Shown piece after piece: positions 46,937-63,591 of a DNA stretch of 64,000 nucleotides. The stretch comes from Planosporangium flavigriseum (GTDB lineage Bacteria > Actinomycetota > Actinomycetes > Mycobacteriales > Micromonosporaceae), in contig NZ_JAATVW010000006.1 in the NCBI RefSeq assembly GCF_011947225.1, positions 62,001 through 126,000 of the forward strand, given 5' to 3'. The translations under genes and the position numbers were made by a program. The notes beneath the pieces are model-generated. The model had not been told where the DNA came from. It worked only from the letters and a program-made list of their open reading frames with translations, and ran no database searches. The number at the start of each line of letters is the position of its first letter. The first letter of the stretch is position 1.

Positions 46937-49900
46937 ATGGGCGTACGCACCTGGCTCGAGAGCTGGCCGGTCTACCGCCAACTCACCGGATCCGACCCCC
47001 TGGGTCGGGGCAAGGCGGCGATGTCCCGCCGCTCGGCGGAGCTCCAGCCGCGCACCGAGACCGCGGATTCGATGGCCAGGTCGGTCTGCCCGTACTGCGC
47101 GGTCGGATGCGCGCAGCGGGTCTACGTCTCCGACGGCCGGGTCACCCAGATCGAAGGCGACCCGGACAGCCCCATCAACCGGGGGCGGCTGTGCCCGAAG
47201 GGCGCGGCGAGCAAGAACCTGGTGAACAGCAAGTTCCGGCAGACGACGGTGCGCTACCGCCGGCCGTACTCGACGGAGTGGGAGGATCTGGACCTCGACA
47301 CGGCGATGGACATGATCGCCGACCGGGTCATCGCGGCCCGGGCCGCGCGGTGGGAGGACGCCGACTCCGAGGGCCGGCCGCTCAACCGCACCCTGGGCTT
47401 CTCCGGGCTGGGCGGCGCGACGCTGGACAACGAGGAGAACTACCTCATCAAGAAGTTGTTCACGGCGATGGGCGCGATCCAGATCGAGAATCAGGCCCGC
47501 ATTTGACACTCCTCCACCGTCCCCGGTCTGGGGACCAGCCTCGGTCGCGGCGGCGCCACCAACTTCCAGCAGGACCTGGCCAACGCCGACTGCATCATCA
47601 TCGAGGGCTCCAACGCCGCCGAGTGCCACCCGGTCGGTTTCCAGTGGTTCATGGTGGCGAAGGAGCGCGGCGCGAAGATCATCCACGTCGACCCCCGATT
47701 CACCCGTACCAGCGCGCTGGCGAACACGTACGTGCCGATCCGAGCCGGCACGGACATCGCGTTCCTGGGTGGGATCGTGCGCTACATCCTGGAGAACGAA
47801 CTGGACTTCCGCGAGTACGTGCTGGCGTACACCAACGCGGCGTCGATCGTCAGCGAGGACTTCCGCGACACCGAGGACCTCGACGGGCTGTTCTCCGGCT
47901 ACGACCCGGAAACCGGCGTGTATGACCCGACGACGTGGCAGTACGAGGGTCAGGAGGCCGCTGTCCAGGACCGCGACCCCGTCATGGAGCGCGAGACGGC
48001 GATGCCGCTGCAGCACGAGTCGCACGGGCCGGGAGTCTCCGGCCGGGTCAGGCGCGACGAGACGCTGCAGCATCCGCGCTGCGTGTACCAGATTCTCAAG
48101 CGCCACTACGACCGCTACACACCCGAGATGGTCGAGCGGATCTGCGGCATCCCGCCGGAGAAGTTCGCCGACGTCGCGCGGGCCTGGACGGAGAACTCCG
48201 GGCGGGAGCGCACGACGGCGCTGGCGTACGCGGTGGGATGGACCCAGCACGCCACCGGCGCGCAGAACATCCGCACCGGCGCGATCATTCAGTTGCTGCT
48301 GGGCAACGTCGGGCGGCCGGGCGGCGGCATCATGGCGTTCCGGGGGCACGCGAGCATCCAGGGATCGACAGACATCCCGACGCTGTTCAACCTGCTGCCG
48401 GGCTACCTGCCGATGCCGAACGCGAAACTGCATGAGACGTACGACGACTGGGTCACCAGCATCTGCCACCCCGAGCAGAAGGGCTTCTGGTACCACGCCC
48501 CGGCGTACTGCGCGAGCCTGATGAAGGCGTACTGGGGCGACGCGGCCACACCGGAGAACGACTTCTGTTACGAGTACATGCCGCGCATCAACGGTGACCA
48601 CGGCATCTACAAGCAGGTCCTGGACATGATCGACGGCAAGATCAAGGGGTACCTGCTGTTCGGGCAGAACCCCGCGGTCGGCTCGATCAACGGCCGGGCC
48701 CAGCGGCTGGGCATGGCCAACCTCGACTGGCTGGTCGTGCGGGACCTGTTCATGATCGAGAGCGCCACGTTCTGGCAGAACAGCCAGGAGGTCGAGACCG
48801 GCGAGATCGTGCCGGAGGAGTGCCGCACCGAGGTGTTCTTCCTGCCGGCGGCGTCCCATGTGGAGAAGGAGGGCACCTTCACCCAGACCCAGCGGCTGTT
48901 GCAGTGGCGGGAGAAGGCCCTCGACCCGCCGAACGACGCCCGGTCCGACCTCTGGTTCATCTACCACCTGGGCCGCATCATCAAGGAGAAGCTGGCCGGC
49001 TCCACCCTGCGCCGGGACCGGCCGATCCGCGACGTGGCCTGGGACTACCCCTTGCACGGCGAGTACGCCGAGCCGAGCGCCGAGGCGGTGCTGCGCGAGA
49101 TCAACGGGTACTCCCTCGAAACCGGGCAGACGCTGCGCACGTTCGGCCAGTACCGCGATGACGGCACGACCGTGGGTGGCTGCTGGATCTACTGCGGTGT
49201 CTTCGCCGACGGCGTCAACCAGGCAGCCCGGCGTCGGCCGGGCAAGGAACAGACCTGGGTGGCCCCCGAGTGGGGCTGGGCCTGGCCGGGCAACCGGCGT
49301 GTTCTGTACAACCGCGCCTCCGCCGACCCCGAGGGGCGGCCGTGGAGCGAGCGCAAGGCCTACCTGTGGTGGAACGAGGAGACGGGCTGCTGGGACGGGT
49401 ACGACGAGCCCGACTTCGAGAGGACGAAGCCGCCGACGTACCGGCCGGGCCCCGAAGCCGAGGGCACCGAGGCCCTCGCCGGCGACGACCCGTTCATCAT
49501 GCAGGGCGACGGAAAGGGCTGGCTGTACGCGCCGTCGGGGCTGATTGACGGGCCGATGCCGACGCACTACGAGCCGCCCGAGTCACCCGTACGCAACCAG
49601 CTGTACGGGCAGCAGGCCAACCCGGCCCGCAAGGTGTACGACCGGCCGGAGAACACGACGCATCCGAGCCCGCCGGAGCCGAACGTCGAGGTCTACCCGT
49701 ACGTGTTCACCGTCGCCCGGCTCACCGAGCACCACACGGCCGGCGGCATGAGCCGCTTCGTGGAGCACCTGGCGGAGCTTCAGCCGGAGATGTTCTTCGA
49801 GGTGTCACCGGAGCTCGCCGCCGAGCGGGGCCTGACCCACCTCGGCTGGGGGCACGTGATAACCGCCCGGGGCTGTGTCGAGGGCAAGGTGCTCGTCACC

Positions 49901-50230
49901 GACCGGCTCACCCCGCTGCGGATCGCCGACCGGATCGTCCACCAGGTGTGGATGCCCTACCACTGGGGCCCCTCCGGCTGGTCGACCGGTGACTCGACCA
50001 ACGACCTGTTCACGATGGTCCTCGACCCCAACGTCCTCATCCAGGAGGGCAAGGCCGGCACGTGTGACGTACAGGCGGGGCGACGACCACACGGACCGGA
50101 TCTTCTCGAGTACCTGAGGGAGTACCGCCGGCGTGCGGGTATAGAGGAGTTTCACCACACGCCGATCATCACAACAGACGCCGCCGAGGCGTCCCACAGA
50201 TGCGGGAGGACTGACGATGGTGGCGCATGA
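46937..50230 (+). CDS. fdhA: Selenocysteine-containing formate dehydrogenase, alpha subunit
   Basis: This is one gene of about 1097 residues with an in-frame UGA at 47504–47506 read as selenocysteine 190. A gene caller that treats it as stop splits it into two pieces. The frame is unbroken on both sides and reads NQARI-Sec-HSSTVPGLGTS, the exact context of selenium FDH. A [4Fe-4S] motif (C51, C54, C58, C86) and the Mo/W-bis-MGD fold follow, with a molybdopterin-dinucleotide domain at about 915–1060. No clear Tat signal is present, so the enzyme is probably cytoplasmic. It oxidises formate to CO2. Homologous operons exist in Streptomyces. A SECIS hairpin lies directly after the UGA. Confidence 0.97.
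47504..47544 (+). promoter_or_regulatory. Sec UGA codon and bacterial SECIS hairpin
   Basis: The UGA at 47504–47506 is followed by a hairpin whose stem GTCCCC (47519) pairs with GGGGAC (47530) around the loop GGTCT (47525–47529). The loop sequence and the 18-base distance from the UGA match E. coli fdhF, in which SelB binds the same GGUCU loop. Confidence 0.93.
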
Positions 50231-51356
50231 GCCGAGGACGGTGCCGACGGAGACGGATCTCCGCGATGAGAGATTGATCCGGGAGAACCGCATCTTCGGG
50301 CCGCTCGACCCGGCGCCGGAGGCGGGGTACGGCATGGACGCCCCGCCGCGCATGGGGTTCTTCACCGACACCAGCGTCTGCATCGGCTGCAAGGCGTGCG
50401 AGGTGGCCTGCAAAGAGTGGAACAACGTCCCCGAGACGGGCCTGGACCTGCTCGGCATGTCGTACGACAACACCGGCGACCTGACCGCCAACTCGTGGCG
50501 CCACGTCGCCTTCATCGAGCAGCCGGTGTCCCGCGAGAAGCTGGCCGAGCGCGGGACGGCCACGGGCGGCCAGGCCGGCAAGGAGACCCCGGCCTTCGAG
50601 GGGCTGCCGACGTCCAGGGTGGCGGCCCCCGACATGGCGGCACGCGCGGCCACCACCGGCAAGGAGACCGGCACCCGGCCGGGTGTGCCGCCGAGCCCCG
50701 AGCCGGGCGCCGCGGTCGAGATGGCGACCGAGTTCCTCGGCATGCCGTCGACCGTGCTCCCCGGCCAACTTCCCGGCGGGGAGCGTACCGACTTCCGCTG
50801 GCTGATGATGTCGGACGTGTGCAAGCACTGCACCCACGCCGGCTGCCTGGACGTCTGCCCGACCGGCGCGCTGTTTCGGACCGAGTTCGGCACCGTGGTG
50901 GTGCAGGAGGACATCTGCAACGGCTGCGGGTACTGCATCTCGGGCTGCCCGTACGGCGTGATCGACCAGCGGGTCGGCGACGGCCGCGCCTGGAAGTGCA
51001 CGCTCTGCTACGACCGGCTGAAGGACGGGATGATGCCGGCCTGCGCCAAGGCCTGCCCGACCGAGTCGATCCAGTACGGGCCCCTGGACGAACTGCGGGA
51101 GCGGGCGGCGCGCCGGCTGGACCACCTGCACGACATCGGGGAGACCGGCGCCCGGCTGTACGGCAACGACCCGTCCGATGGCGTCGGCGGCGACGGCGCG
51201 TTCTTCCTCCTCCTCGACGAGCCCGAGGTGTACGGGCTGCCGCCGGACCCGGTCGTGCCGACCAAGGACCTGCCGGCCATGTGGCGGACGGCCGGTCGGG
51301 CGGCGTTGGCCATGGCGGCGGCCGTAGCGGTCGCGTTTCTGGGACGGCGACCGTGA
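50217..51356 (+). CDS. fdhB: Formate dehydrogenase iron–sulfur (beta) subunit
   Basis: This 379-residue protein carries four [4Fe-4S] cysteine groups: C55/C58/C61/C65, the C202 group (CKHCTHAGCLDVCP), CNGCGYCISGCP and CTLCYDRLKDGMMPACAKACP. A hydrophobic C-terminal helix (about 355–375) anchors it. Between the first two groups lies an insertion of roughly 75 residues (about 105–180), Gly/Thr/Pro-rich and unlike other beta subunits. It passes electrons from FdhA to the membrane subunit. The start overlaps the fdhA end by 14 bases and has GGGAGGAC upstream. Confidence 0.95.
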   Translation: MVAHEPRTVPTETDLRDERLIRENRIFGPLDPAPEAGYGMDAPPRMGFFTDTSVCIGCKACEVACKEWNNVPETGLDLLGMSYDNTGDLTANSWRHVAFIEQPVSREKLAERGTATGGQAGKETPAFEGLPTSRVAAPDMAARAATTGKETGTRPGVPPSPEPGAAVEMATEFLGMPSTVLPGQLPGGERTDFRWLMMSDVCKHCTHAGCLDVCPTGALFRTEFGTVVVQEDICNGCGYCISGCPYGVIDQRVGDGRAWKCTLCYDRLKDGMMPACAKACPTESIQYGPLDELRERAARRLDHLHDIGETGARLYGNDPSDGVGGDGAFFLLLDEPEVYGLPPDPVVPTKDLPAMWRTAGRAALAMAAAVAVAFLGRRP

Positions 51357-52465
51357 CCGCCGGGGAGATGGGCAGCATGGGCAGGGAGGCCGCGAGCCGC
51401 GAACCGTCCGGTCGCCCGCCGGTCGGTGAACGTTTCCGGGCGTTCCAGGAGTCCCGGAGACGGGGTGAGGGTAAGCGCGAGGGCGGCGAGCAGCCGATGG
51501 TTCCCCGCGCCGAGTTCAGGTCGTACTACGGCCGGCCGATCCTCAAGCCGCCGGTGTGGCACCACGACATCGCGGCGTACCTGTTCACCGGCGGCCTGGC
51601 GGCAGCCTCCTCGATGATTGCCGCCGGCGCCGACCTCACCGGCCGGCCGGTCCTGCGCCGGACGGGCCGGGTGACCTCGCTCGCCGCGCTCGGCGCGAGC
51701 ACCTACTTCCTGATCCACGACCTGGGCAAGCCCGAGCGGTTCCACCACATGCTGCGGGTGGCCAAGCCGACCTCCCCGATGTCGATCGGCACCTGGATCC
51801 TCGCCGCCTTCGGGCCGGCGGCCGGGGTGGCCGCCATCGCCGAGGCCGCGCCGCTGCTGCCGGAGCGCGGGCCGCTCGGCCTCGTCCGGCGGATCCTGCC
51901 GCCCGTCGGCCGGGGCGCGAACCTCGTCGCGTTCGTGATGGGCCCACCGCTCGCCACGTACACGGCGGTGCTTCTCGCGCAGACGGCCGTGCCGTCGTGG
52001 CACGAGGCGTACCCGTACCTGCCGTTCGTCTTCGCCGGCAGCGCGACGGCCGCCGCCTCCGGGGTGGGGCTGATCGCGGCGCCGCCGGAGGAGACCGGGC
52101 CGGTGCGGCGGCTCGCGGTCGCCGGCGCCGCCCTGGAGTTGACCGCGATGCACAAGGTCGAGCACGAGCTGGGCGTGGTGAGCGAGCCCTACCGCGAGGG
52201 CCGGGCGGGACAGCAGTTGCGCCTCGCCCGCAGGTTCACCGTGGCCGGGGCGTTCGGCGCGCTGCTGAGCGGTCGCAGCCGCATCCTGTCCGCGCTGTCC
52301 GGCGCGGCGCTGGTGGCCGGATCCGTCCTGACCCGGTTTGGCGTCTTCGACGCTGGTAAGGAATCGGCTCGGGACCCGAAGTATGTTGTCGTGCCGCAGC
52401 GGCAGCGCCTTGAAGAGCGCGGCCTCGAGCGCGTGGAGAAGGTGACCACGCCGGAGGCCGACTGA
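51353..52465 (+). CDS. fdhC: NrfD-family membrane subunit of formate dehydrogenase
   Basis: The 370-residue protein is a polysulfide-reductase NrfD-type membrane anchor with about eight to nine helices. Residues 1–55 are a hydrophilic N-terminal tail rich in charged residues. YYGRPILKPPVW and HDLGKPERFHHMLRVAKPTSPMSIGTW are family motifs. It should pass formate electrons to quinone. The GTG overlaps the fdhB stop (GTGA), implying coupling; ATG 51368 is also possible. Confidence 0.9.
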   Translation: MTAGEMGSMGREAASREPSGRPPVGERFRAFQESRRRGEGKREGGEQPMVPRAEFRSYYGRPILKPPVWHHDIAAYLFTGGLAAASSMIAAGADLTGRPVLRRTGRVTSLAALGASTYFLIHDLGKPERFHHMLRVAKPTSPMSIGTWILAAFGPAAGVAAIAEAAPLLPERGPLGLVRRILPPVGRGANLVAFVMGPPLATYTAVLLAQTAVPSWHEAYPYLPFVFAGSATAAASGVGLIAAPPEETGPVRRLAVAGAALELTAMHKVEHELGVVSEPYREGRAGQQLRLARRFTVAGAFGALLSGRSRILSALSGAALVAGSVLTRFGVFDAGKESARDPKYVVVPQRQRLEERGLERVEKVTTPEAD

Positions 52466-57035: not shown

Positions 57036-57131
57036 GGAGGCGTTCGGGCAGCTGGTGCTCCCCACGGTCTTCAAAACCGATGTGGCCCGGGATCCGGGTC
57101 AGGCGGGTTCGATTCCCGTCCGCCTCCGCCA
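57036..57131 (+). tRNA. selC: tRNA-Sec (UCA)
   Basis: The 96-base gene starts GGAGGCGTTCGGG and ends CGCCTCCGCCA with encoded CCA. The anticodon loop CTTCAAA (57069–57075) holds TCA at 57071–57073. It has the long variable arm (CCCGG–GAT–CCGGG) and T arm GCGGG/CCCGT expected of tRNA-Sec, and it resembles actinobacterial selC closely. One mismatch (T57043 with C57120) is at the eighth acceptor pair. Confidence 0.96.
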
Positions 57132-57992: not shown

Positions 57993-59021
57993 TCTAAAAC
58001 TGACGATCATCGTTGACACCTGGGTCTCCGGAGACTACGGAGACCATCTATGTCTAAGTCCACCCCTGCGCTGGATCGTGAAGCGAAGCGGCGCCTGGCG
58101 ATCATCCGCCACGTCGAGGAGGTCACCGGCAACGTCGCGCTGACCTGCCGCTACTACGGCATCAGCCGGCAGGCGTACTACATCTGGTACCGCCGCTACC
58201 TGGCCGAGGGGGTCGACGGGCTGCGGACCCGGTCGAAGCGGCCCAAGACCTGCCCCCACGCCACCCGTGCCGAGGTCGTCGAGAAGATCCTCTACCTGCG
58301 GCAGAACTACCACTTCGGCCCGGCGAAGATCGCGATGTACCTCAAGCGCTACCACGACATCACGGTCAGCCACTCCGGCGTGTGGCGCATCCTCAAGCGC
58401 CTGGACCTCAACCGGCTGCCTGCCTCGCAGCGCTACAAGCGCCACGACAAGCGCTGGAAACGCTACGAGAAACAGCTGCCCGGCCACCGGGTCCAGATCG
58501 ACGTCAAGTTCATCGAGCCCATCGGCGCGACCAAGACCGGCCGCCGCGGCGGGCGCAACAAGTACTACCAGTTCACCGCGATCGACGACTGCACCCGGCT
58601 GCGGGTGCTGCGCATCTACCCGCAGCTCAACCAGAAGACCGCCATCCAGTTCCTCGACTACGTGCTGCAGCGGCTGCCGTTCCAAGTGCAGGTGATCCAG
58701 ACCGACAACGGCGCGGAGTTCCAGACGGCGTTCCACTGGCACGTGCTCGACAAGGGCATCGCCCACACCTACATCAAGCCGCGCACCCCGCGCCTCAACG
58801 GCAAGGTCGAACGGTCCCACCGCATCGACGCCGAGGAGTTCTACCGGATGCTCGACGGTGTCGTCATCGACGACGCCGAGGTCTTCAACGACAAGCTCCG
58901 CGAATGGGAGGACTACTACAACTACCATCGCCCGCACGGCGGCCTCGACGGCCAGACCCCCTACGAACGCCTCAAGCAGAAGACCACGACCCAGGCGTAA
59001 ACGATCACCGTCACTCGCACA
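57993..59021 (+). mobile_element. IS481-family insertion sequence
   Basis: The 1029-bp element is flanked by an exact 15-bp direct repeat. Imperfect inverted repeats lie inside each end (58001–58023 and 58991–59013), matching at 19 of 23 positions. The outer ends read TCT on the left and ACA on the right, near the TGT/ACA ends of the family. It encodes one transposase. The intact duplication suggests a fairly recent single insertion. Confidence 0.88.
58050..59000 (+). CDS. IS481-family transposase
   Basis: The 316-residue protein has an N-terminal helix-turn-helix region (about 20–75, CRYYGISRQAYYIWYRRYL) and an rve DDE domain with Asp in QIDVKF, Asp in QTDNGAEF and Glu in GKVERSHR. The frame is complete. 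The stop codon lies within the right inverted repeat. Confidence 0.95.
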   Translation: MSKSTPALDREAKRRLAIIRHVEEVTGNVALTCRYYGISRQAYYIWYRRYLAEGVDGLRTRSKRPKTCPHATRAEVVEKILYLRQNYHFGPAKIAMYLKRYHDITVSHSGVWRILKRLDLNRLPASQRYKRHDKRWKRYEKQLPGHRVQIDVKFIEPIGATKTGRRGGRNKYYQFTAIDDCTRLRVLRIYPQLNQKTAIQFLDYVLQRLPFQVQVIQTDNGAEFQTAFHWHVLDKGIAHTYIKPRTPRLNGKVERSHRIDAEEFYRMLDGVVIDDAEVFNDKLREWEDYYNYHRPHGGLDGQTPYERLKQKTTTQA

Positions 59022-61877: not shown

Positions 61878-63533
61878 TCAGACCGCTCGTCGGGTCGCGC
61901 GCAGCACGACGTCGTTGACGTGGTGGGTACTGGCCGCGCCGGGAGGCCGTGGCCGGGTCTCGTGCGTCTCGACGTGCCAGGTATCGGGGTCGGCGGTGAG
62001 CGCGGCGGCGATCTCGTCGACCCCGACGAACGCCCCCGGGTCGTACATCCGGGTCTGGGTCGCCGCGTCCACCGGGTCGCGCAGGGCGGTGAGGTCGTGA
62101 TGGACGACCAGGAGTGTGCCGCCGGGGGCGACGGCATCGAGCAGGCTGCGCAGGCCGCGCTGGTCGGGCGTGCGCTTGAACGAGCCGTACTGCAGTGAGA
62201 CCAGGTGGAAGGGCTCGGTGCCGAAGGGGGTGGGATCGTTGGCGTCGCTGCGTACCAGATGGATGCTGAGCCCGCGGCGCTCGGCCTCGGCGCGTACCCG
62301 GGCGAGTGCGTTGCCGGAGATGTCGGTGGCGGTCACCTTCCAGCCGTGTTCGGCCAGCCAGAGGGTGTCGGCGCCCTCGCCGGTGCCGACGTCGAGCGCC
62401 CGGCCGGGGGGCAGGTCGGTGACCTCGTCGACGAGTGTGCCGTTGGGGTTGACGCTCCAGACACGGTCCGGGCCCCCGTAGCGGTGGTCCCAGTCGATCT
62501 CCTCGCCCGAGGACCGAGCGGCGTCGCGCAGGTCCTCCTCGGCGAGGCTGAAGGCGATCATGGCGCCTACCTGGCTGCCCTGGGCCGCCGACGGCAGCAC
62601 CTGCAGGCTGGGGTCGGTGACGTTGCCGGCTGCGTAGATGCCGGGCACGGCGGTCTGGCCACGCGGATCCACTGAGAGGACATCGCCGGCGCCGGTGGGG
62701 TGAGCAGTGGTGGTGAGCCCAACCCCGGCCAGCATGTCGGCACGGGCATGGAACCGTGGATTGACCACGACGGTGTCGGCCTCCAGGACGCGACCGTCGA
62801 CGAGCTCGACTCCGAAGACCTCGTCGTCGGGCCCCGTAAGGACGCGGTTAACCTCGTTGCGCTCGATGACGAGGCCCGAGGCGGCCAGAGCGTGCAGGAC
62901 CTCCTCGTTGAGCCCGGTGGGGTCGTGCAGCACGACGGTCAGCCGGTCGGTCAGGTGCCGCCACAGCGGGGTCGGGTGCATACCCAGGGGGTGGGTGATG
63001 ATCTGCACCAGGCGCTGGTCGCGCACCTCGAAGCCGTGGCAGAACGGGCAGTGCACCACGCCGCGACCCCACTGCGCGGCGACGCCGTCGATCGCGGGCA
63101 GTTCGTCGGTCAGGCCTGTCGCGGCGAGGACACGGCGGGCCACCAGCGCATGCCCACCGGTGAGGTCAAGCCGGAACCGACCGTCGTCGCGACGGTGCAC
63201 CGCCACGACCCGGCCGGTGAGTACCTCTCCGCCGTACGTGCGTACTTCCTCGCGCCCGACCGCCATGAGTTCGCCGGGCGCTGCCCCCTCGTGCCCCAGG
63301 TAGCCGTGCATGTGGACGGCCGGGGCGTTGCGCGGGGCTCCGTCGTCGACCACGATCACGCTGCGCCGCTGGCGGGACATTTGCAGGGCGGCAGCGAGCC
63401 CGGCGGCCGAGCCGCCGATCACGGCGACATCACAGTGACGCTCCATGGTCGGATGCCGAGCGTGATGGTCGGCGTGGTGGTCGACGCCTTCGGGGTCGAC
63501 CAGCTGCTGGCTATCGGCGGCGTGCTCGCTCAT
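61878..63533 (-). CDS. Bifunctional FAD-dependent oxidoreductase / SAM methyltransferase
   Basis: This 551-residue protein is a fusion. Residues about 30–340 are a thioredoxin-reductase-like FAD/NAD(P) enzyme (VIGGSAAGLAAALQMSR; CPFCHGF in the redox position; GIYAAGNVTDPSLQV). Residues about 350–551 are a class I SAM methyltransferase (ALDVGTGEGADTLWLAEHGWKVTATDIS). Such fusions are known in actinobacteria. The pair may oxidise and methylate one small molecule, a guess. ATG 63533 is used; the ribosome site is weak. It is divergent from the XRE gene and likely controlled by it. Confidence 0.9.
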   Translation of the reverse strand: MSEHAADSQQLVDPEGVDHHADHHARHPTMERHCDVAVIGGSAAGLAAALQMSRQRRSVIVVDDGAPRNAPAVHMHGYLGHEGAAPGELMAVGREEVRTYGGEVLTGRVVAVHRRDDGRFRLDLTGGHALVARRVLAATGLTDELPAIDGVAAQWGRGVVHCPFCHGFEVRDQRLVQIITHPLGMHPTPLWRHLTDRLTVVLHDPTGLNEEVLHALAASGLVIERNEVNRVLTGPDDEVFGVELVDGRVLEADTVVVNPRFHARADMLAGVGLTTTAHPTGAGDVLSVDPRGQTAVPGIYAAGNVTDPSLQVLPSAAQGSQVGAMIAFSLAEEDLRDAARSSGEEIDWDHRYGGPDRVWSVNPNGTLVDEVTDLPPGRALDVGTGEGADTLWLAEHGWKVTATDISGNALARVRAEAERRGLSIHLVRSDANDPTPFGTEPFHLVSLQYGSFKRTPDQRGLRSLLDAVAPGGTLLVVHHDLTALRDPVDAATQTRMYDPGAFVGVDEIAAALTADPDTWHVETHETRPRPPGAASTHHVNDVVLRATRRAV

Positions 63534-63574
63534 GGGTGTGACGCTACGGCGTCCCGGCGATCTGAGCAAAGACC

Positions 63575-63591
63575 CTTGCAGAATTAGCAAG
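63575..63591. promoter_or_regulatory. Candidate operator for the XRE regulator
   Basis: CTTGCAGAATTAGCAAG is a 17-bp inverted repeat (CTTGC/GCAAG arms) in the 77-base gap between two divergent genes. A third GCAA half-site lies at 63566. Position fits control of both genes. Confidence 0.5.

Follow-up and report, generated by a model that had tools for sequence, protein, structure and literature searches.

The DNA analysed here, called the window, is a stretch of 64,000 nucleotides (C56:62001-126000) in the 5.72-Mb draft genome of Planosporangium flavigriseum. On its forward strand a formate dehydrogenase gene, fdhA, heads an fdhA-fdhB-fdhC(NrfD) operon. A transporter gene and the selenocysteine (Sec) genes selD and selC lie downstream. 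The features are as follows.

46937-50230, + strand: fdhA, predicted Sec-containing alpha (catalytic) subunit of formate dehydrogenase, 1,097 residues with Sec190; one in-frame TGA, matches to NF041513 and TIGR01553
47501-47503, + strand: ATT codon for Ile189, immediately 5' of the Sec UGA; U/A retained at the third base despite a strong GC3 bias
47504-47506, + strand: predicted Sec UGA codon, residue 190; TGA in 81/81 close homologues, aligned with a non-standard residue of 1h0h_A
47519-47535, + strand: apical hairpin of the SECIS, stem GUCCCC/GGGGAC, loop GGUCU; from fold, conservation, covariation and published bacterial SECIS (bSECIS) constraints
50217-51356, + strand: fdhB, iron-sulfur beta subunit, 379 aa; Fer4_11 82.8 bits, TIGR01582 179.9 bits (under the cut-off of 334.7)
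51353-52465, + strand: fdhC, NrfD-type membrane subunit, 370 aa, GTG start; PF03916 (NrfD) 69.3 bits
52480-53766, + strand: MFS transporter, lactate / oxalate-formate antiporter group; NF049980 414 bits (above the cut-off), TIGR00890 224 bits
54041-55030, - strand: selD, selenophosphate synthetase; TIGR00476 392 bits (cut-off 125)
57036-57131, + strand: selC, tRNA-Sec with anticodon UCA; ARAGORN, Rfam RF01852 73.3 bits

When TGA was read as Sec, the fdhA frame ran from its ATG to a terminal TGA at 50228, and the sole internal TGA was codon 190, in the context NQARI-U-HSSTVPG. Both the frame, open but for this codon, and the surrounding motif are as a preliminary description of the DNA had given them. 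Without recoding, standard ORF calling yielded two ORFs from the region, 46937-47506 and 47651-50230. The protein scored above the cut-offs of NCBIfam NF041513 (1,896 bits over residues 6-1066, cut-off 1,400), the actinobacterial formate dehydrogenase family formate_DH_Act, and of TIGR01553 (947 bits, cut-off 814.2). Its relatives of solved structure were the Sec formate dehydrogenases 1h0h, 1kqf and 8cm4; residue 190 aligned with the 'x' that marks a non-standard residue within the active-site motif of 1h0h_A, and the motif around it is the one that holds Sec196 in E. coli FdnG.

The hairpin downstream of the TGA has a 6-bp stem, GTCCCC/GGGGAC, in which 47519-47524 pair with 47530-47535, and the spacing from the UGA to the GGTCT loop is exactly 18 nt, which bears out the earlier claim of such a loop at the standard distance. 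The published bacterial SECIS model specifies a loop of 3-9 nt, an upper stem of 4-16 bp, a G in the first two loop positions, 16-37 nt from UGA to apical loop and a minimum free energy (MFE) of -7.5 kcal/mol or lower (PMC13188914), and the fdhA hairpin lies within all four of its constraints (5-nt loop with 6 pairs; GGUCU; 18 nt; -11.4 kcal/mol). Compared with shuffled sequences, its folding energy was ordinary for the composition (z = -0.04), and the evidence for the SECIS is therefore positional and evolutionary. The combination of a TGA, an 18-nt spacing, an RGTYT loop and a full 6-bp stem occurred once in the window, at 47504, against 0.005 per strand expected from shuffles. The element also carries U17, G23 and U24 (E. 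coli numbering, with the U of UGA as 1), and SelB binding sites have been described at U17 and G23 (PMC8659212). Among the distinct Sec homologues these bases were present in 138/138, 135/138 and 136/138, respectively.

We found that the TGA and the GGTCT were invariant in 81 close homologues drawn from numerous actinobacterial genera, including Micromonospora, Actinoplanes, Nocardioides, Streptomyces, Amycolatopsis and Mycobacterium. Among 284 columns in which these homologues conserve the amino acid and have a synonymous choice, just four were invariant in codon, and three of the four were the consecutive SECIS codons CCC GGT CTG; GGT makes up 11% of the glycine codons in the same genes. A single in-frame stop within an otherwise open frame is also what a pseudogene would present, or a TGA produced by sequencing error or by recent mutation from TGC/TGT. 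Against this stand the TGA shared by all 81 close homologues and by a paralogue in the same genome, the invariant SECIS codons with a covarying stem, and a GC3 of 0.93 over the complete frame, like that of a maintained gene. This reading is refuted because the TGA is conserved across genera, and its remaining probability is negligible.

The stem itself was examined across the phylum. Full SECIS pairing was found in 124 of the 138 Sec homologues and in none of 17 Cys homologues, which are a natural control for the element; 15 of the 17 also lacked the GGTCT loop. Several loci listed with one TGA were assigned to the Cys group, since they had Cys at residue 190 and their TGA lay at another position. 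Pair 3 of the stem occurred as C-G, U-A and G-U, and pairs 4 and 6 changed from C-G to G-C. In a 15-sequence alignment all cells paired, none of 500 shuffles attained the observed covariation score, and sliding the pairing partner abolished it. As to distribution, matches at E <= 1e-100 were present in 82 of 151 sampled genomes of the family and 124 of 396 sampled genomes of the phylum.

The genome encodes a complete set of Sec-decoding genes. The nearby selD and tRNA-Sec of the preliminary description were recovered by TIGR00476, ARAGORN and RF01852, while selA (417 bits, C56:135991) and selB (269.5 bits, C56:137262) were located about 10 kb past the end of the window. That description had named a genome without selA and selB as an argument against Sec; this does not apply, because both genes are on the same contig, intact and above their cut-offs. 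About 17 kb separate the tRNA-Sec at 57036 from selA/selB at C56:135991, including an IS481-type transposase gene (58050-59000); in Arthrobacter, selD, selA and selB sit side by side. Decoding of the UGA by a near-cognate tRNA, or another recoding event (for example, to Trp), is a general possibility, yet tRNA-Sec, selA, selB and selD all occur here, residue 190 coincides with the Sec of solved formate dehydrogenases, and homologues without the TGA have Cys at this residue; such decoding is thus highly improbable. Family score, SECIS anatomy, codon conservation, covariation, the contrast with Cys homologues and the complete selA/selB/selC/selD set together support the earlier proposal of a Sec formate dehydrogenase. 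From these sequence data we conclude that 46937-50230 is almost certainly an intact gene of this type, its internal 'stop' being taken as Sec.

A second Sec formate dehydrogenase alpha subunit, 78% identical and with its TGA kept, is encoded on another contig, C16 (L019 541-4752). It directly follows purU (formyltetrahydrofolate deformylase, TIGR00655), with a GcvT-like gene also upstream, and no beta or gamma genes were found adjoining it. The deformylase reaction releases formate.

Within the operon, neighbouring genes overlap, fdhA and fdhB by 14 nt and fdhB and fdhC by 4 nt, and GGGAGG lies upstream of the fdhB start. The third gene, fdhC, gave no match to an FdnI-type (cytochrome b-type gamma) family, and the order fdh-4Fe4S-nrfD was also seen in Arthrobacter and Thermomicrobium records. 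The MFS protein encoded next is possibly a formate transporter. Elsewhere in the window, a glycine riboswitch aptamer was detected at 1422-1517 (RF00504, 59.3 bits), and the minus strand at 61878-63590 encodes a 570-aa protein in which a thioredoxin-reductase-like half is joined to a methyltransferase half.

By analogy with the families to which these proteins belong, SelB-GTP with Sec-tRNA(Sec) would bind the hairpin, whose loop begins 18 nt after the UGA, and Sec190 would be inserted in place of release-factor termination and would ligate Mo/W in the active site of FdhA. FdhA would then oxidise formate to CO2, and electrons would pass from FdhB through FdhC to the respiratory chain, presumably by coupling to quinone. 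Formate dehydrogenases can be reversible, and the enzyme might instead be mainly a CO2 reductase, or soluble, rather than a respiratory formate oxidase. The N-terminus of FdhA bears SRRS with no hydrophobic stretch after it, as judged by eye, whereas E. coli FdnG has one; because it seems to have no E. coli-like Tat leader, FdhA may face the cytoplasm, which would suit a reductase or soluble enzyme. The NrfD-type membrane subunit encoded immediately downstream argues against this alternative, as does the dependence on selenium of formate/formic acid removal in the actinobacterium Actinomycetospora chiangmaiensis DSM 45062 (PMC7176365). We therefore regard a reductive or soluble enzyme as unlikely. 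A. chiangmaiensis encodes three Sec formate dehydrogenase systems, and its proteome contained SelA, SelB and SelD (PMC7176365). The locus very probably specifies a membrane-associated, Sec-dependent formate dehydrogenase, with FdhA as catalytic, FdhB as electron-transfer and FdhC as NrfD-type membrane subunit.

A further constraint was found on the 5' side of the UGA. Codon 189 was ATT in 80 of the 81 close homologues, ATA in one and ATC in none, whereas isoleucine elsewhere in the same genes was encoded by ATC 3,084 times and by ATT 67 times. Across the 138 Sec homologues of the phylum, the base before the UGA (-1) was U in 108, A in 25, C in 3 and G in 2. U or A was present in 133 of the 137 scored, against about 10 expected from the synonymous usage of each gene, although these counts are not independent events because the sequences are related. 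None of the 17 Cys homologues had U or A at this base, which was always C or G. Parsimony on the tree gave three Sec/Cys changes, with C or G at -1 in every Cys tip, and other conserved isoleucine columns stayed C-ending on the same tree. In E. coli fdnG and in 8/8 other Sec homologues of Pseudomonadota, which came from plasmid records, the -1 base was C.

Codon 188 (Arg, 47498-47500) showed the same bias more weakly, ending in U or A in 62% of Sec and no Cys homologues. Mutual information revealed no complementary partner for the -1 base. The ATT-TGACA junction contains a perfect -35 hexamer, and an overlapping promoter was considered and rejected: there was no promoter-like site, and the ATA clades are without the hexamer. 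In an independent actinobacterial Sec family (TIGR01591, 297 genomes), TGA was present in just one of the matches listed.

Taking these data together, we lean towards the view that the Sec decoding signal of Actinomycetota extends 5' of the UGA, with selection for a U or A at the third base of the P-site codon (AUU, AUA, GUU). The absence of the constraint from Cys homologues and from Sec homologues of Pseudomonadota suggests that the extension is a lineage-specific feature of Sec decoding. The effect could possibly arise through weaker release-factor termination beside the UGA or through tuned delivery by SelB; in human cells, the identity of the P-site codon affects termination (PMC9841425). 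The SelB of this genome (L010 1441-3249) matched TIGR00475 only at positions 2-339 of 581, and the divergent C-terminal half, where SECIS binding would be expected, lies beyond that match; this divergence might be related to the 5' context.

This 5' context is the sole part of the analysis that is likely to be of specialist interest. The sequence scanned by one recent predictor of selenoproteins lies entirely downstream of the UGA (PMC12013277), and if the rule is true, current SECIS models, being built on downstream sequence only, miss a 5' feature, and the -1 base could be used by selenoprotein gene finders. It would also offer a natural handle on the partition between Sec insertion and termination, which has been studied in E. 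coli (PMC4513850). No prior report of the rule was found in the open-access literature, most subscription papers lying outside that scope, so its novelty is unproven.

The gene itself belongs, as an ordinary member, to a family already known. Few bacterial selenoproteins are as widespread as the formate dehydrogenase alpha subunit (PMC5029168), and Sec formate dehydrogenases have already been described in Actinomycetospora and in Streptomyces, where S. incarnatus NRRL8089 has a Sec FDH-O with a SECIS and a selABCD cluster (PMC4498112). The related genes of Arthrobacter and Thermomicrobium, with TGA at the Sec site, each carry the annotation of a single full-length gene, 'fdh, formate dehydrogenase', and because of this the earlier expectation that automatic annotation would split or break the gene is outdated for NCBI, which has a dedicated model in NF041513. 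For the gene, the analysis accordingly offers little beyond the right annotation and one more genome with two Sec formate dehydrogenases in a well-populated family.

With FDH1 and FDH2 of A. chiangmaiensis and FDH-O of S. incarnatus, the present system shares a Sec alpha subunit, a downstream SECIS, beta and gamma subunits and linked sel genes; it differs in the distance of selA/selB from the tRNA-Sec and in having a second Sec paralogue on another contig with no adjacent beta or gamma gene. With E. coli FdnGHI it shares a TIGR01553 alpha subunit, Sec in the same motif and a UGA-18 nt-RGUCU SECIS with U17, G23 and U24. Here, however, the membrane subunit is NrfD-type, the beta subunit scores under the TIGR01582 cut-off, FdhA appears to lack an E. 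coli-like Tat leader, and ATT precedes the UGA where E. coli has GTC. By the first three of these features, the predicted complex is not of the FdnGHI type in full. The hairpin agrees with the bSECISearch model in loop length (5 nt), stem length (6 bp), G at the opening positions of the loop, spacing (18 nt) and MFE, and the conserved U or A at -1 is a feature outside that published model.
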